Shown here: in pieces, positions 235-8,278 of the stretch
How the letters are laid out: each line of letters starts with the position of its first letter
Numbering within the stretch: position 1 is the stretch's first letter
Source: Pseudomonadota bacterium
GTDB taxonomy: Bacteria > Myxococcota > Polyangia > Polyangiales > Polyangiaceae
Assembly: GCA_023419055.1 (NCBI GenBank)
Contig: JAEZYO010000079.1
Location: 1 to 8,278, forward strand
Length of the DNA: 8,278 bases
Direction: 5' to 3'
The notes under the pieces: model-generated
Told to the model about the DNA's origin: nothing
The model's database searches: none
The model's input: only the letters and a program-made list of their open reading frames with translations
Position numbers and translations under genes: made by a program

Positions 235-1044
235 ATGACAGAGCCGTTGGTTTTGGACACAGAGTCGCGGTCGCGGGCGGCGTACCGGCGGCTTTTACCG
301 GCGCTCGAGGCCATCCCCGACGAGCAGGTTCAGATCGTCAATCTCGACGTGATGCGCACCATCACGACAGCGCTCGGTGTCCTGCCCGAGGTTCGAGCGT
401 TCGAAGCGAGGCTCCGCGCGCTGCCGGAGTTCGACGTCCGGTGTTTCGAGGAGCTCGAGGAGCGAGCGTTCGCCCTGTTTCGGGCCGAGGTGCTGCATCT
501 CGCGACGACGGAGCCAGAGGAGCCGATCGAGAAGCTCGTCGAGTTGAACCTCGAGGCTCGCGGGCAGCTGCTCGCGAGTCTACGCTCGCTCACGGCTCAC
601 GGCGTGATCCAGCGCGAGGTCGAGAGCTACCGCGCGCCGCAGCGCGGCCGACTGGGGCTCGCGAGTCACGTGGGCATGCTCGTCGTGATCCTGCGCGAAC
701 ACTGGGAGCTCGCGCAAGGCAAGACGCCGCTCACCCTCCAGCGGCTCGAGGAGTGTGACGAGCTCCAGTTTCAGCTGATGCGCGCGCTCGGCCTCCGCGA
801 GCAACGCGCGAACAACGTGAGCCGCACGACCTCGATCCGGATGCGCGCGTTCACGTGGCTCGTCCGGGCGTACACCGAGGTTCGACGAGCGATCTGCTAC
901 CTGCGCTTTCACCAGGGCGACGCGGACACGATCATTCCTTCGCTCTACGAGAAGCGAACGCGCCGGCGAAAGCGCGCGAGCGACCCTATCGCTCACTCTC
1001 CGCAATCGACCTTCGAGGCCCAGTCCGAGGCCGAGGCCGGATAA
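235..1044 (+). CDS. Hypothetical, predominantly alpha-helical protein (269 aa)
   Basis: I do not recognise this family. The start ATG at 235 has a good ribosome binding site, GGGGAG, ending 5 nt upstream. The protein has no signal peptide or hydrophobic segment long enough to span a membrane, so it is probably cytoplasmic. It is rich in Glu, Arg and Leu and looks helical throughout. The C-terminal part (about residues 190-245) is Arg-rich with a basic cluster, KRTRRRKR, near residues 240-247, which could contact nucleic acid or simply be a linker. The last 20 residues are Ser/Glu/Ala-rich and probably disordered. It converges on the HAD/rlmI unit with a 39-bp gap and seems monocistronic. The overlapping frames are Arg-rich shadows, and this frame has the expected G/C-biased third codon positions. 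No function is assigned. Confidence 0.8.
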   Translation: MTEPLVLDTESRSRAAYRRLLPALEAIPDEQVQIVNLDVMRTITTALGVLPEVRAFEARLRALPEFDVRCFEELEERAFALFRAEVLHLATTEPEEPIEKLVELNLEARGQLLASLRSLTAHGVIQREVESYRAPQRGRLGLASHVGMLVVILREHWELAQGKTPLTLQRLEECDELQFQLMRALGLREQRANNVSRTTSIRMRAFTWLVRAYTEVRRAICYLRFHQGDADTIIPSLYEKRTRRRKRASDPIAHSPQSTFEAQSEAEAG

Positions 1045-1083: not shown

Positions 1084-1872
1084 TCAGCCCGGTTCGCGCC
1101 GGAGCGCCATCAGCGTCTCCGCGAGCTCGGCGAAGCCCGCCCCACGCTCGCGCGACGTGATGAAGCGCGGCCGCACCGTCAACCTGCCGCGGAGGTTCGC
1201 GACGCCCACGCTCGTCTGAAAGGCGGCGAAGCAGGCGGCGTCGTTCTCGCTGTCCCCCACGAAGGCGTAGCGCAGCCTGCCTTCGGTCGGGTCGAGGCCC
1301 GTCTTTCGGTGGAGGAGCCAGAGCGCGCCGGAAGCCTTATCGGCGCGATCGAAGCTCACGTGCAGGTGCACGCTCGAGCTCGTCGTGAAGGCGCCGTGGC
1401 GCCGCGCTTCGGCGCTCGCGGCCTCCACGATCTCGTGAGCCACCTTCCTGGTCTCGCCGATGTCGAAGGTGAAATCGCTGCGGCGCGCGCCCACGTCGCT
1501 CGCGGGGACGAGCTCCTCGAACTGGGCTCTCAGGAGCGCGACGAGCTCGCGCAAGCGCTCGTTACGAGAAGCGCGCTCGGCGGGTGGAATGCGATCGACC
1601 ACGACCAGATGTCCGCCGTCCTCCACGACGCCGATGGCGCCGTTCTCCGCGATGGCGCCGTCGACCGGCCACATGCGACCGAGGACCTCGGCCCAACCCG
1701 AGGGGCGCCCGGTGACGATGTAGAGCGCAAGGCCCGCCTCTTTCATGCGAAAGAGCGCGCGATACGTGGCTTCGGCGAGGCGCCCGTGATCGAGCACGGT
1801 GTCGTCGAGATCGAACAGGAGCCCGGTGAGTCTCCGTGCTTCGGCCGCGGTCAGCTTCGAGAGGGGGAGCAT
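1084..1872 (-). CDS. HAD-superfamily hydrolase, Cof/IIB sugar-phosphatase type (262 aa)
   Basis: A probable cytoplasmic phosphatase acting on a phosphorylated sugar or similar small metabolite. All four HAD motifs are visible: motif I DLDDT at residues 21-25 (Asp21 nucleophile, Asp23 acid/base), motif II in VTGR (53-56), a motif III Lys at about 179 (RADKASG), and motif IV GDSEND at 206-211, which would bind Mg2+. The ENGA at 76-79 and the large insert between motifs II and III (about 80-170) point to the type IIB cap found in Cof-like, mannosyl-3-phosphoglycerate and sucrose/trehalose phosphatases. Length is typical for that group. The exact substrate cannot be read from sequence. The ATG lies one nucleotide after the rlmI stop (TGA-C-ATG) with no convincing Shine-Dalgarno, so translation probably depends on termination-reinitiation from rlmI. 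The gene ends 39 bp from the convergent upstream gene. Confidence 0.88.
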   Translation of the reverse strand: MLPLSKLTAAEARRLTGLLFDLDDTVLDHGRLAEATYRALFRMKEAGLALYIVTGRPSGWAEVLGRMWPVDGAIAENGAIGVVEDGGHLVVVDRIPPAERASRNERLRELVALLRAQFEELVPASDVGARRSDFTFDIGETRKVAHEIVEAASAEARRHGAFTTSSSVHLHVSFDRADKASGALWLLHRKTGLDPTEGRLRYAFVGDSENDAACFAAFQTSVGVANLRGRLTVRPRFITSRERGAGFAELAETLMALRREPG

Positions 1873-1873
1873 G

Positions 1874-3061
1874 TCAGAGGCTCGAGATTTCGGCGATGAT
1901 CGAGGTCAGGTAGAGCCCCTCGGGGAAAGCCGCGGGCACCGGGTGGTCGGGTCCCTGGTACCAGCGTTCGAGCACCGTGGCGCGCGCGCCGATGTCTCGA
2001 GCACCAAGAGCGAGCGCGCGCCCGAGCTCGGTCAGGCCCACCGCAGCGGAGCAGGAGCAGAGCACCAGCAACCCTCCGGGGCGAGTGGCGCGGGCTCCGG
2101 CTCCCGCCAGGCGCCGCAGGTTGTCTTGCGCGCGACCGCGGGCGCCGCGATTGGGCGCGAGCTTCGGCGGGTCGCAGATCACCAGATCGTAGCCGCCCTT
2201 CCGCCCGGCGTGGCTCAACATCTCGTGAGCGTCACCGCGCTCGAAGCTCACGCGATCCGAAAAGCCGTTCGCCGCGGCGGCTTCCGCGCCGACCTCGACC
2301 GCGAGGGCGCTCGAATCGATCGCTTCGACCCGGCGCGCGCCACCGCGGGCTGCTGCGAGCGAGATGGCGCCCACGTAGCAGAAGGCGTCCAGGACCTCCC
2401 GCCCCTTCGACAGCTCCTCGATCCTTGCGCGAAGCGGCCGCTGATCCACGTAAAAACCCGTCTTTTGCCCGAGCTCGAGCGGGATGCGGAATTTGATGCC
2501 CCGCTCCTGGAACTCGAAGGCGTCGAGCGTCGTGTCCCCGCGGATCACTCCGCTGCGCGGTTCGAAGCCTTCACTCTCGGCGGAACGACGCGCGGTGCGA
2601 TCGACGATGGCGCGCGGAGCCATCTTGCCGAGCGCGTCCAGGATCAGCCCCTCGCGGCGCTTCATGCCGATGGTCCCGAACTGGACGCACAGCACGTTGC
2701 CGAGGAGGTCGACGACGAGCCCGGGGAGGTCGTCCCCCTCGGCGTGGACCAGGCGCACGGCGTCGGTATCCCGACTCGGGAGCCCGAACTCGCGACGGCG
2801 CTCGATGGCGCGCTGGAGGCGATCGTTGATCAGCTGAGCGTCGATCCGTCGCCCGGGGTCGCGCGTGTAAATGCGCACGGGGATCGCGGACCCTGGGGAG
2901 TAGAGCCCACGACCGAGCGAGTTACCTCGGCTGTCCTTGACGTCGACCTCGTCACCCGGTTGAGCGCCACCTTCCACCCGCTCGATGGCCTGCGCGAATA
3001 CCCAAGGGTGCCCAGCCCAGATCGGCTGAACATGGCCGGCTTTGACGACGACGACGCCCAC
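1874..3061 (-). CDS. rlmI: RlmI-type class I SAM-dependent 23S rRNA (cytosine-C5) methyltransferase
   Basis: It resembles E. coli RlmI (m5C1962 of 23S rRNA) end to end and has almost the same length (395 aa). The N-terminal PUA-like RNA-binding domain covers about residues 2-70 (HPWVF at 18-22, RGLYSPGS at 51-58). A central domain ends in TGFYVDQR (201-208). The Rossmann methyltransferase domain has motif I around 225-250 (DAFCYVGA), motif IV DPPK (297-300) and motif VI LCSCS (334-338), where Cys337 of the SCS is the expected catalytic cysteine. The C-terminus has DHP (372-374) and PEGLYL (380-385), as in E. coli. The start is GTG with GGGGGTG upstream. One oddity is that the Y-K-D-x-N segment of E. 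coli RlmI after motif IV reads L-R-R-L-A here (315-319). The target nucleotide is inferred from the family. It is first gene of a unit with the HAD hydrolase. Confidence 0.9.
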   Translation of the reverse strand: MGVVVVKAGHVQPIWAGHPWVFAQAIERVEGGAQPGDEVDVKDSRGNSLGRGLYSPGSAIPVRIYTRDPGRRIDAQLINDRLQRAIERRREFGLPSRDTDAVRLVHAEGDDLPGLVVDLLGNVLCVQFGTIGMKRREGLILDALGKMAPRAIVDRTARRSAESEGFEPRSGVIRGDTTLDAFEFQERGIKFRIPLELGQKTGFYVDQRPLRARIEELSKGREVLDAFCYVGAISLAAARGGARRVEAIDSSALAVEVGAEAAAANGFSDRVSFERGDAHEMLSHAGRKGGYDLVICDPPKLAPNRGARGRAQDNLRRLAGAGARATRPGGLLVLCSCSAAVGLTELGRALALGARDIGARATVLERWYQGPDHPVPAAFPEGLYLTSIIAEISSL

Positions 3062-4180: not shown

Positions 4181-4492
4181 TTACTGGACGAGATCCTTGA
4201 GCGCCTTCAAGGCGGTGGCGCGCACCTTCTTGCTGGCGGGCTTGGCCGGGATCGTGATCGGCTCCTTCGTGAACGGGTTGATGCCCTGACGCTCCTTGGT
4301 CGCCGGCTTCTTGACGACGCGGAGCTTCACGAGGCCCGGAACCACGAACTCGCCGGGGCCGCGCGAGGAGAGCTGCTTGCGGATGAGCTCGGAGAGCCCC
4401 TCGAACACGCGGCTCACGCTCTTCTTGTCCAGGTCGGTTGCGTTCGCGAGCTCAGCAATCACCTGAGCCTTGGTAAGTCTTTTGCCTGCCAT
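4181..4492 (-). CDS. HU-family nucleoid DNA-binding protein (103 aa)
   Basis: A bacterial histone-like protein of the HU/IHF fold, which dimerises and bends DNA non-specifically. The N-terminal helical dimerisation part is clear (LTKAQVIAELA at 6-16, then a Ser/Arg-rich helix to about 42). It is followed by the beta-saddle (PGEFVVPGLVKLRVVKK). The DNA-intercalating arm reads GINPFTKEPITIPAK at about 70-84, in place of the common GRNPxTGExIxI form. The C-terminal helix carries KVRATALKALKDLV. Extra Lys residues give a strongly basic protein. Length is slightly over the usual 90 aa. The ATG at 4492 has AGGAG 7 nt upstream (4500-4504). The gene stands alone with a long upstream region, and codon bias is strong as expected for an abundant protein. 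HU is favoured over IHF, but a species-specific paralogue is possible. Confidence 0.9.
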   Translation of the reverse strand: MAGKRLTKAQVIAELANATDLDKKSVSRVFEGLSELIRKQLSSRGPGEFVVPGLVKLRVVKKPATKERQGINPFTKEPITIPAKPASKKVRATALKALKDLVQ

Positions 4493-4837: not shown

Positions 4838-5353
4838 TCAGCGCTTCTTGGCTCTCGGGCGCTGCTTCGAGCGGCGCGAAACGGGGGCCTTGCGCCTCGA
4901 AATCGGCGGGGCGTCGGGGAGCGGTGCCGCACGGACGAGGCGGCGGGTCGCAGCCACCATGACCCGCTTTTCTTCGGGCTCCCCGTGATCGTGGCCGAGG
5001 AGATGGAGGAGCCCGTGCGCGAGGAGGAAGCGCACCTCTTCGAGGAGTGGTCGTCCGCGGCCGCGAGCCTGGCGCTCGGCGGTATCGAGCGAAATAACGA
5101 CGTCTCCGAGCAGGCGCGGAGAATCGGAGCTCGAGGGATCTTCGTCGAGCGGGAACGAGAGCACGTCGGTCGGCTTGTCCTTGTTCCGGTGCTCGCGGTT
5201 CAACACCTGAATCTGGCGGTCGTCGGTCAAGAGGACGCTGAGCTCGGCGTCCTCGAGCCCGAGCGACGCGAGCATGGCGTCTCCGAGCGCTCGCACGGTG
5301 TGACTCGAGAGCGCGGGAGAGCGCGGTGCTCTGCGGAGGACTTGGGTCGTCAC
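4838..5353 (-). CDS. ybeY: Endoribonuclease YbeY, rRNA maturation factor (171 aa)
   Basis: A zinc-dependent single-strand endoribonuclease that takes part in 16S rRNA 3'-end maturation and ribosome quality control. The family signature HGLLHLLGHDH is present at residues 113-123, giving the three zinc-binding histidines His113, His117 and His123. Also conserved are NKDKPTDVLSFP (57-68) and LLGDVVIS (81-88). I chose the GTG at 5353 because family proteins begin about this far before the first conserved block. The residues encoded upstream, back to a TTG at 5425, do not look like protein of this family. A GGGGAA at 5357-5362 precedes this GTG but at short spacing. The C-terminus has a Pro/Arg/Lys-rich tail (about 150-171) beyond the usual end, perhaps RNA-binding. 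The common partner gene phoH is not beside it. It diverges from the membrane-protein gene at 5460. Confidence 0.9.
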   Translation of the reverse strand: MTTQVLRRAPRSPALSSHTVRALGDAMLASLGLEDAELSVLLTDDRQIQVLNREHRNKDKPTDVLSFPLDEDPSSSDSPRLLGDVVISLDTAERQARGRGRPLLEEVRFLLAHGLLHLLGHDHGEPEEKRVMVAATRRLVRAAPLPDAPPISRRKAPVSRRSKQRPRAKKR

Positions 5354-5459
5354 GGGTTCCCCGTACAACGAGCGCCGAGAGCGGCAAATCACGAACTTTT
5401 CAGTAAACCCGTGGCGACTTTCCAAGGATTCGTCACGGCGCTACGTTCCATAACGTTGA

Positions 5460-6032
5460 ATGGCTCGTCCCTCGCGCCCTCCTGGTTTCGACATGACGTA
5501 TCGGCCGGACGAGACCGTCTTCGGCCCGCCGTTCGTGGTCCGCATCCCCTCGTTCCTGTACCTGGCGCTGGCCGTCGCGGCGGTCGTGATCGTCATGCTC
5601 GCGGAGCGCAGCGAGCCGGGGAGCTTTCTCTACGTGCACGTGCTCGAGCGCGGCGTAAAAGGCGTAATTAGCGCTCAAACGGTCGCGATCGTGATTTCTG
5701 TCGGGGCGATCGCCTCGATCATCCAGAGCAGCATGCGCGGCGTCCGCATCCGGGGCGACGGCGTGGAATACCGGGACATGGTCACGATCGGCATCCCGCG
5801 CGTGAAGCGCGTGCGCTGGGCGCAGATGGACTGCATCGTGCTCGATCTCCCGCAGACCATCGCGATCGATCTCTGGGACGGCACGCGCGCGTATTTGCCC
5901 GTCGTCAACGATCGCGCGCTGCTCTCGGCGACGCTCGAGAAGGTCGCGGCGGCTCGCGCCATCCCGGTGCGCGGCGGCGCGGGGCTCGACGAAATCCCGG
6001 AGAGCGCCGAGGACGAGCTCGAAGAGGCCTGA
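5460..6032 (+). CDS. Two-helix membrane protein with PH-like domain (190 aa)
   Basis: Unrecognised family. Hydrophobic segments at about 30-47 (SFLYLALAVAAVVIVML) and 72-89 (AQTVAIVISVGAIASII) should form a helical hairpin in the inner membrane. The following part, about 93-170, reads GVRIRGDGVEYRDM...GIPRVKRVRWAQMDCIVLD and then IAIDLWDGTRAYLPV. The pattern of beta strands ending in a helix (ALLSATLEKVAAA) resembles bacterial PH-like domains, which often follow two membrane helices. That assignment is an inference from pattern only. The last 15 residues are acidic. The start is uncertain: ATG 5460 and ATG 5493 (Met12) both lack a clear Shine-Dalgarno, and Met12 would give a 179-aa protein with both helices. 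It is transcribed away from ybeY and converges on the lipoprotein gene. Confidence 0.78.
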   Translation: MARPSRPPGFDMTYRPDETVFGPPFVVRIPSFLYLALAVAAVVIVMLAERSEPGSFLYVHVLERGVKGVISAQTVAIVISVGAIASIIQSSMRGVRIRGDGVEYRDMVTIGIPRVKRVRWAQMDCIVLDLPQTIAIDLWDGTRAYLPVVNDRALLSATLEKVAAARAIPVRGGAGLDEIPESAEDELEEA

Positions 6033-6578: not shown

Positions 6579-7076
6579 TCAGCGCCGCTTCTTGCGCTGG
6601 CAGTCCGCGCAGCGGCCGTAGAGCTCGTGTTTGTGCGCCTGGACCTCGAAGCCGTACTTGCGGGCGACTCGATCCTGGAGCTCCTCGATCGCCGGCTCCT
6701 CGAACTCGGTGATTTTGCCGCAGTCGAGGCAGATGAGGTGATCGTGGTGGGCGTCGGCGTCCGCGAGCTCGTAGCGCGTATGACCGTCCCCGAACTTGTG
6801 CTCCTGCACGACGCCGCTCTCGGTCAGCATCTTGAGGGTGCGGTACACCGTCGCGTATCCGACGCGCGGATCGACGGCGCGCACCTGGCGGAGCAGCGCG
6901 TCGATCGTGATGTGCTCGGTGTTGTCGAAGAGCTTGTCGATGATCAGGCGCCGCTGCTCGGTCGAGCGTAGGCCGCGCTTGTTCATGAACGTCTCGAGAT
7001 CGGTCCGCAGCCGATCTTGATCCGGGATGCGCGGCTTCAATGCGCCCGAACCGCCCTTGGACGCTAGCGTCTTCAC
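6579..7076 (-). CDS. fur: Fur-family metal-responsive transcriptional regulator (165 aa)
   Basis: A cytoplasmic dimeric repressor that binds DNA with a metal co-repressor. The N-terminal winged helix covers about residues 27-105, with RSTEQR (37-42) and the recognition helix GYATVYRTLKML (73-84). The dimerisation domain has the metal-binding HHDHLICLDCGK (110-121). Structural zinc cysteines are Cys116/Cys119 and Cys156/Cys159. Glu124 occupies the position of PerR Asp104, the residue needed for peroxide sensing, so Fur (iron) is favoured over PerR; Zur or another metal cannot be excluded. The start is uncertain. The GTG at 7076 lacks a clear Shine-Dalgarno, and a TTG at 7040 (residue 13) would remove a Gly/Ser/Lys tail that precedes the domain. 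It lies 53 bp downstream of the P-type ATPase homologue on the same strand and may be cotranscribed with it. Confidence 0.9.
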   Translation of the reverse strand: MKTLASKGGSGALKPRIPDQDRLRTDLETFMNKRGLRSTEQRRLIIDKLFDNTEHITIDALLRQVRAVDPRVGYATVYRTLKMLTESGVVQEHKFGDGHTRYELADADAHHDHLICLDCGKITEFEEPAIEELQDRVARKYGFEVQAHKHELYGRCADCQRKKRR

Positions 7077-7129
7077 TCGGGATAGATTCCCAACCGGCGC
7101 GCCCGAGTCAAGCGTCCCTTCGCGGCCGG

Positions 7130-8278
7130 CTACTTCCTCGCTCGGAGGAGGGCCAAGGCTCCGCCCGCCGTGGCCGCAAAAGGCGCGAGCGCGGCTGGTG
7201 CGAGGCCGAGGGCGGCGAGGACGGAGAGCGTGACGGCGGGGGCGAGGACCAGGCCGAGATCGACGCGGGTCTCCCGCCGGCAGTCGTGGGCGACGCGCAG
7301 GGCGAAGGCGGCGTCACGGACGTCGTCCGAGGCGAGCTGGACGGCCCATTCGGCGCTGGTCGAGCCAGCCGCCCGAAGCGCCACCGCCACGTGCGCCGCC
7401 GAGAGCCCGGCGTCGTCGCTCGGGGTCCGCCCCACCACGGCTGCCACCGCGCCGCCCTCCTCCAGGCGCCGGACCTCTTCGCCGCGCTCCGCCGGAGGAA
7501 CCTCCGCTCGGATGTGGTCGATATCGAGCGTGCGCCCGAGCGCCTCGCAGGTCTCGCGGGAATCTCCGGAGAGGAGGACCGGCTCGAGCCCGACGTCGAG
7601 CAGGTGTTGCACCGCCGCGCGAGCTCCGGGGCGCAGGCCGTCCTGCAGCCCGACCACGCCGATGAGCCTGCCACCGAGCGCCACGAGCAGCACGCTGCGG
7701 CCCATCGCCTCGAGGTCGCTGATGGCGCGCTCGGCCATGGCGACGCTGACGTGCTCGCGCAGCATGAGCGCGCGGCTGCCCACGATGAGCGGTTGACCAT
7801 TCGAGGCGACGGCGGTCACGCCGAGCCCGGGTTGGAGCGTCGGGCTGCGCACTCCGTCGGGACGAACCCCGCGGGCTCGCGCGGCGCGCGTGACGGCGCT
7901 CGCGACCGGATGCTGCGCGCCGCTCTCGGCGCCGGCCACGAGCGCGAGCACCTGTTCGGGCTCGTGACCCGCGAGCGCGTCGATGTTCGCCACCTCGGGT
8001 TCACCGAGCAGCAGCGTTCCGCGCGCGCAGAAGACGACCGTCGAGACGCGGCTCGCCCGGTCGAAGCCGTCCGCGCTCCTGAACGCGACGCCGCGGCCGA
8101 GCGAGTCGAAGACCCCGGCGAGCACCCGCACCGCCCCGAGCGCCGCGAGGGCCGGCTGAGACAACGCCGCCTGCACCGCGGCGGCCATCATCAGCACCGC
8201 GACGAAATCGCCGTCGGCCGCGTAGGCGGCGAGCGCCGCGAGCATGGCGCCGAGGGGTGCCGCGCGTTCCGCAAACAG
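7130..8278 (-). CDS. P1B-type heavy-metal P-type ATPase homologue, degenerate catalytic motifs, 5' end outside window
   Basis: The frame stays open to the window edge, so only the C-terminal 382 residues are seen. The Met codon at 8243-8245 is internal and residue numbers here count from it. Order: membrane segments resembling TM5-TM6 (to about 45), a P/N domain pair (about 65-320), then two membrane helices (about 328-367) at the C-terminus. Kept features: RASRVSTVVF before the phosphorylation site, the P1B HP motif in SGAQHPVASAV (112-113), GLGV (140-143) and VGS (155-157) of the nucleotide pocket, and SGD (226-228). Lost features: the phosphorylated Asp (DKTGT reads CARGT, Cys73), GDGxNDxP (reads GRTPSDDA, 272-279), the conserved P-domain Lys (Arg254), and the CPC metal site (SQPA, 29-32). 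No frameshift or stop interrupts it. Transport by the normal phosphoenzyme cycle should be impossible, so a regulatory or scaffolding role, or slow decay, is inferred. Confidence 0.85.
   Translation of the reverse strand: MFAERAAPLGAMLAALAAYAADGDFVAVLMMAAAVQAALSQPALAALGAVRVLAGVFDSLGRGVAFRSADGFDRASRVSTVVFCARGTLLLGEPEVANIDALAGHEPEQVLALVAGAESGAQHPVASAVTRAARARGVRPDGVRSPTLQPGLGVTAVASNGQPLIVGSRALMLREHVSVAMAERAISDLEAMGRSVLLVALGGRLIGVVGLQDGLRPGARAAVQHLLDVGLEPVLLSGDSRETCEALGRTLDIDHIRAEVPPAERGEEVRRLEEGGAVAAVVGRTPSDDAGLSAAHVAVALRAAGSTSAEWAVQLASDDVRDAAFALRVAHDCRRETRVDLGLVLAPAVTLSVLAALGLAPAALAPFAATAGGALALLRARK

Follow-up and report, generated by a model that had tools for sequence, protein, structure and literature searches.

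An order-wide family of P1B-type ATPase homologues without the phosphorylatable aspartate

The pseudo-pump gene and its family

The stretch of DNA analysed here (the window; 8,278 nucleotides of contig JAEZYO010000079.1 from the Polyangiaceae assembly GCA_023419055.1) carries at its far end, on the reverse strand, part of a gene for a P1B-type heavy-metal ATPase homologue that has lost the Asp of its DKTGT motif, here termed the pseudo-pump. The frame is open over 382 codons and exits the window edge, with its 5' part lying beyond. The fragment covers only the C-terminal half of a TIGR01525-type protein, and its match to this NCBIfam model (ATPase-IB_hvy, 161 bits) lies under the 346-bit cut-off; the closest relative in the Protein Data Bank is CopA (E 6e-34). 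The first-pass annotation of the window, made from the sequence alone, had read the DKTGT Asp as Cys followed by Ala-Arg-Gly-Thr, GDGxNDxP as GRTPSDDA and the P-domain Lys as Arg within an intact frame, and had listed HP, GxGV and SGD as remaining; each of these readings was reproduced (Table 1), including the N-domain HP and GxG pocket of P1B pumps. Antisense to the pseudo-pump runs a 413-codon frame (7040–8278, forward strand), probably a by-product of high GC content.

Table 1. Features of the window; those of the pseudo-pump are given first
Feature	Position	Strand	Basis
Pseudo-P1B-ATPase coding sequence, C-terminal half (end of M3, M4, P/N domains, M5–M6)	7130..8278	-	PF00702 E 4e-12, TIGR01525 E 3.7e-47
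Former DKTGT phosphorylation motif, now CARGT	8015..8029	-	Cys codon TGC at 8027–8029; family column aligned
Canonical M4 CPC metal site, now Ser-Gln-Pro	8153..8161	-	Alignment
N-domain HP(V), retained	7904..7912	-	Motif mapping and alignment
GLGV, N-domain GxG loop (CopA G490/G492), retained	7817..7828	-	Motif mapping and alignment
SGD (canonical TGD)	7562..7570	-	Motif mapping
P-domain Lys position (CopA K600), now Arg	7484..7486	-	PAERGEE at 7475–7495; Arg in 136/150 family rows
Former GDGxNDxP, now GRTPSDDA: first Asp gone, last Asp retained	7409..7432	-	Motif mapping and alignment
Fur-family regulator, 53 bp downstream of pseudo-pump, same strand, recurrent neighbour	6579..7076	-	PF01475 E 8e-38
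HAD-IIB hydrolase	1084..1872	-	Pfam/NCBIfam
RlmI-like rRNA methyltransferase	1874..3061	-	Pfam/NCBIfam
HU/IHF-like protein	4181..4492	-	Pfam/NCBIfam
YbeY	4838..5425	-	Pfam/NCBIfam

Eight loci in metagenome-assembled genomes (MAGs) encode relatives with 50–66% identity to the window fragment over the matched half; their full-length proteins (725–809 aa) are all without the Asp and without a second half. A protein search gave 397 matches among 7991 candidates scored, and the 120 listed were aligned with the window fragment and the eight locus proteins. At the Asp position, this first set of 129 aligned proteins has Cys (87), Ser (31), Ala (8), Leu (2) or Gln (1), never Asp, an absence that goes beyond chance, and Ala-Arg-Gly-Thr comes next in all 129; TGE and CPC are lost, the last Asp of GDGxND is present throughout and the first is Arg, Gln, Lys, His, Thr or Cys. 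A second protein search, seeded from the other main branch of the family, found the same sharp boundary between family and canonical pumps. Together, both searches and the locus proteins gave 234 proteins without the motif, the remaining 15 being canonical. Asp occurs at the DKTGT column in none of the 233 family proteins aligned there (P0230 has no residue at this column), among which Gly and Thr are also found. Although they are without the catalytic residues, many of P0010–P0129 are annotated in databases as 'Cu+-exporting ATPase', 'P-type Cu+ transporter', 'cation transport ATPase' or 'HAD family hydrolase'.

The distribution of the family was assessed in 183 genomes of an order of soil bacteria, that of G003, the 'Polyangiaceae bacterium' MAG from which L003 comes. 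With canonical pumps counted, 181 of them gave a match of some kind, and taking every listed best match down to ∼230 bits, one per genome, places a family locus in at least 149 of the 183, a lower bound because weaker matches were not listed. The genome search flagged one internal stop in each of 15 of the best matches, and only open frames as found were used. With the window, these loci make 150 family rows, and the Asp column can be read in 149 (148 genomes and the window): Cys 102, Ser 19, Leu 16, Ala 5, Asn 2, Val 2 and Met, Gln and Phe once each. The motif is more diverse than CARGT outside the main clade. Close relatives all carrying DKTGT, which the first-pass annotation had tied to a decaying pseudogene, were thus not encountered (0/149 readable rows and 0/233 aligned family proteins). 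In 235 genomes sampled evenly from the phylum, the sole matches outside the order at E ≤1e-60 were four canonical pumps.

The other catalytic positions are similarly affected. Residue numbers are those of CopA, placed through the alignment of the window with CopA. None of the 150 rows has an intact TGE, CPC or GDGxND (five rows are gapped at TGE); the A domain, which holds TGE, was judged from relatives, the window stopping short of it. TGE followed by Ser or Pro occurs away from the aligned A-domain place in three sequences, and the CPC place reads PCA in L076, L079 and L080, while canonical paralogues retain CPC. D424 and K425 are retained in no row, T426 is Arg in 124 and K600 is Arg in 136 and Lys in one. 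D618, the first GDGxND Asp, is Arg in 64 and His in 57 rows; it is retained in one of the 148 readable rows (L189) and replaced, mostly by Arg or His, in 147, while D622, the last Asp, is retained in 147/150. The N-domain pocket is kept to a large extent (G490 in 143, G492 in 145, G501 in 148, E457 in 119 and H462 in 99 of 150).

The N-terminus, where the first-pass annotation had suggested looking for TGE and metal-binding domains, could be followed in relatives: TGE was not found there, but a putative metal site is present as a ribbon of four Cys (C-x2-C ... C-x3-C), each 0.99 conserved among rows with a residue at that place, together with a DPLRA motif. Among the 222 database and locus proteins longer than 650 aa, 178 show the ribbon by simple pattern matching and 194 a DPLRA-like motif. 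Weak sequence and fold matches relate the ribbon to L24e and MYM-type TRASH, and the first of eight ribbons scanned, the one with scores given, passes one Pfam cut-off (DUF7576, 28.9 vs 27).

The AlphaFold model of one relative, P0001, shows a complete P-type fold (predicted local distance difference test 88), with A, P and N domains and eight transmembrane helices, as read from the model's helix list and not from a transmembrane predictor; by this prediction the whole fold is kept by the family. The transmembrane segments have no column conserved at ≥0.9, compared with 18 in 20 canonical pumps, whereas the family is at or above the canonical pumps in the A domain (10 vs 9 columns), the N domain (12 vs 7) and the second P stretch (20 vs 20). 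This pattern fits a protein with an important cytosolic face, in which the ion path and phosphorylation site would be dispensable.

On the evidence of their sequences, these proteins constitute an order-wide family of full-length P1B-type ATPase homologues without a phosphorylatable Asp or an intact GDGxND, TGE or M4 CPC, and there is very strong support for their having lost the chemistry of pumping. The Asp phosphorylated in the pump cycle defines P-type ATPases. From established P-type biochemistry, no phosphorylatable Asp means no phosphoenzyme, and we infer that the pseudo-pump cannot pump by the Post-Albers cycle.

Purifying selection and origin

Ratios of non-synonymous to synonymous substitution (dN/dS), calculated by the Nei–Gojobori method, are 0.059–0.196 for the 22 closest pairs (≥91.7% identity) and 0.08 to 0.31 for pairs at 77–84% identity; distant pairs reach 0.59, with synonymous sites nearing saturation. 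The window and its nearest sampled relative give 0.28 at a dS of 0.94. The pseudo-pump has a lower dN/dS than argD or argF in all six pairs with a usable neighbour comparison, several of the argD comparisons being partial (177–184 codons). It lies between argH and lysA in one pair (0.235, against 0.205 and 0.246) and equals an acyl-CoA-synthetase-like neighbour in another comparison (0.058 and 0.057). Three fur comparisons were usable (144–149 codons), and in these the fur ratio exceeded that of the pseudo-pump in two pairs and was the lower one in the third; fur pieces of 11–35 codons and one argF of 52 codons were left unused (mismatched, with dS >1 or zero).

Among the 150 family frames, 132 span the model nearly to both ends and 16 are cut by a sequence end. 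The two others, L141 and L173, are the sole frames interrupted away from a sequence end, through frameshift, decay or assembly error. As measured by codon comparison, the family is under strong purifying selection: catalytic residues are lost and dN/dS is well below 1, and neither general frame disruption nor a dN/dS near 1, the value that the first-pass annotation had linked to decay, is found. Its proposal of a maintained pseudoenzyme, and not a fresh pseudogene, is supported by these ratios and by the orthologues without DKTGT; for the nucleotide binding that it offered as one option (the other being a binding partner), the support comes from the retained pocket residues.

A tree of 144 family sequences and 20 sampled canonical P1B pumps, in which the window is the sole family fragment <560 aa, recovers the family as monophyletic (support 0.94), so that one ancestral loss of the Asp is the simplest reading. 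It divides into two main branches of 95 (support 0.76) and 49 sequences (support 0.85). Since 4 of the 15 canonical proteins listed beside the family carry a YHS domain (P0235, P0236, P0240 and P0246), the family may plausibly descend from a Cu pump with a YHS domain. Canonical P1B pumps coexist with the pseudo-pump in all seven genomes searched.

Gene neighbourhood

An arginine gene adjoins the pseudo-pump in 107 of the 125 loci with both flanks. Upstream, argD and/or argF lie on the same strand in 80 of 133 loci with ≥600 bp of upstream sequence. Of the 142 loci with a downstream flank, 30 have a co-oriented argH there, with lysA next in 26 of these; argH is divergent in two further loci. 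A co-oriented fur gene is found ≤400 bp downstream in 30/142, window included. The argD/F loci belong to the larger main branch, as do all 30 fur loci, and the argH loci to the other. At chosen loci the identities of argD (TIGR00707), argF (TIGR00658), argH (TIGR00838) and lysA (TIGR01048) were confirmed above NCBIfam cut-offs, and by Pfam too. The arginine frame and the chosen start of the pseudo-pump overlap by 1–8 bases in five of six loci measured, with a 6 bp gap in the sixth; such overlap suggests translational coupling.

The usual order in the argH branch is pseudo-pump, argH, lysA (L088 5024–6316 and relatives), with a divergent fumarase gene upstream in one subclade. L072, L077 and L078 represent a subclade without arginine neighbours, having an AMP-binding (acyl-CoA synthetase-like) gene downstream on the opposite strand. 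Close to the locus, L001 and L002 too have frames that by eye resemble the HAD-IIB hydrolase and RlmI-like methyltransferase of the window. Two coding-like forward frames of the window (235–1044 and 5460–6032) have no Pfam or NCBIfam match at E 0.01.

Possible roles and comparison with known systems

The pseudo-pump probably acts in sensing or regulation and not as a pump, and nucleotide binding is likely given its pocket residues. The reading that we favour, tentatively, is a membrane-anchored, non-pumping protein that probably binds nucleotide and has a regulatory or scaffolding role in arginine biosynthesis; this role, suggested by gene neighbourhood, is the least certain part of the reading. 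In the proposed mechanism, the retained N-domain pocket (G490, G492, G501 and mostly E457 and H462) would bind ATP or ADP without hydrolysis, the TRASH-like ribbon would hold a metal ion and the membrane part would serve as an anchor. Ligand binding would change the arrangement of the A, N and P domains without turnover and, co-expressed with the arginine-biosynthesis enzymes, the pseudo-pump would act as a nucleotide- and perhaps metal-responsive regulator or scaffold of the pathway. In a fuller form, which we hold more tentatively still, an ion pump may have been turned, in an ancient, order-wide stand-alone family, into a ligand sensor or scaffold that is anchored in the membrane and serves arginine biosynthesis; Arg or His in place of the Mg site would then let nucleotide be read without hydrolysis.

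Several observations weigh against this. No arginine gene was seen in 18 of the 125 loci with both flanks, and the link may therefore be an inherited neighbourhood, not function; the counts also span related genomes and are not independent events, and the argD/F and argH arrangements were never found together in one locus within the flanks (1.5–6 kb). In one pair the dN/dS of the pseudo-pump (0.134) is above that of argH (0.079), lysA (0.061) and fumC (0.038). The first P stretch, at the DKTGT place, has four columns at 0.9 compared with ten in canonical pumps. Nucleotide binding may not be universal, because H462 is lost in a third and E457 in a fifth of rows.

It is conceivable that the pseudo-pump is a regulatory or assembly subunit tuning a canonical P1B-ATPase of the same cell, with the ribbon as metal sensor. 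The canonical pumps in 7/7 genomes, the full predicted fold and the YHS domain on 4/15 canonical proteins agree with this, but it is arginine genes that adjoin in 107/125 loci (linkage to canonical pumps was not searched systematically), and among the structured parts conservation is lowest in the membrane helices, through which pairing would be likely to occur; we consider such a partnership unlikely. Equally doubtful is a metal sensor or buffer working with the adjoining Fur, in which the ribbon would load metal and the pseudo-pump would signal to Fur. The recurrence of fur downstream (30/142, including the window) and the four conserved ribbon Cys speak for it, as does the proposal, reported in PMC4626032, that YHS/TRASH modules are metal sensors; however, 112/142 loci have no such fur, and the 30 that do are confined to one main branch, the other (49 sequences) having none.

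A new enzyme, with migrated or replaced catalytic residues in a HAD-like P domain, for example Cys for Asp, is improbable. Cys is indeed commonest at the Asp position (102/149) and the last GDGxND Asp is retained in 147/150 rows, but the position may also be Ser, Leu, Ala, Asn, Val, Met, Gln, Phe, Gly or Thr, so that no single nucleophile is required, and the first Mg Asp is replaced in 147/148 readable rows. The lost motifs and the two frames that break off within the gene and not at a contig end (L141 and L173, 2/150) could indicate a decaying pseudogene or a sequencing artefact. Such an explanation has next to no probability and is rejected for the family as a whole, given dN/dS of 0.059–0.196 in the closest pairs, 132/150 complete frames, a further 16 being truncated where the sequence ends, and the same loss of the Asp in every readable row.

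A regulator or scaffold of arginine biosynthesis derived from a pump would be an unexpected membrane protein linked to this pathway. An order keeping an Asp-less pump under selection would show that the P-type fold is reusable as a non-catalytic module, in the manner of pseudokinases, and the family may offer a natural test of what in the P-type architecture counts apart from catalysis. The names 'Cu+-exporting ATPase' and 'P-type Cu+ transporter' also seem to be wrong for these proteins.

The P-type ATPase superfamily was reportedly treated by Chan et al. in 2010, a study cited in PMC3924187. Our open-literature searches turned up no paper on a stand-alone pseudo-P-type ATPase family. The family resembles P1B-type heavy-metal ATPases (CopA/ZntA, TIGR01525) in its homology over the A, P, N and membrane parts, in keeping the N-domain GxG and usually HP, and in a predicted fold that agrees with CopA structures; it differs in having no intact DKTGT, TGE, CPC or GDGxND, in having the P-domain Lys in only 1/150 rows and in forming its own clade. 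Its ribbon shares C-x2-C ... C-x3-C with the treble-clef ribbons of TRASH, YHS and L24e-like proteins, while DPLRA is specific to the pseudo-pump family. A P-type module is also tied to signalling in the apicomplexan guanylyl cyclase with a P4-ATPase domain, but there, according to PMC7858053, the catalytic Asp is conserved and activity of the domain is reported as essential, unlike the pseudo-pump family, in which the Asp is lost.

Three proteins of 1473–1546 aa (L214, L215 and L216; G001:C12, G006:C16 and G004:C500) are FUPA24-like fusions, in which an N-terminal pump-like half without DKTGT is joined to a C-terminal one that has TGE, DKTGT and GDGAND. Judged by their motifs, these N-terminal halves give the genomes another type of dead P-type module, beside the pseudo-pump. 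FUPA24 proteins (M. tuberculosis CtpH/CtpI type) are described in PMC3573892 as having a large N-terminal segment without functional motifs beside an active C-terminal pump half with DKTGT, whereas the present family stands alone; the dead half matches the family weakly (9–23 bits). With its one dead half, FUPA24 is the nearest precedent for a dead P-type module.
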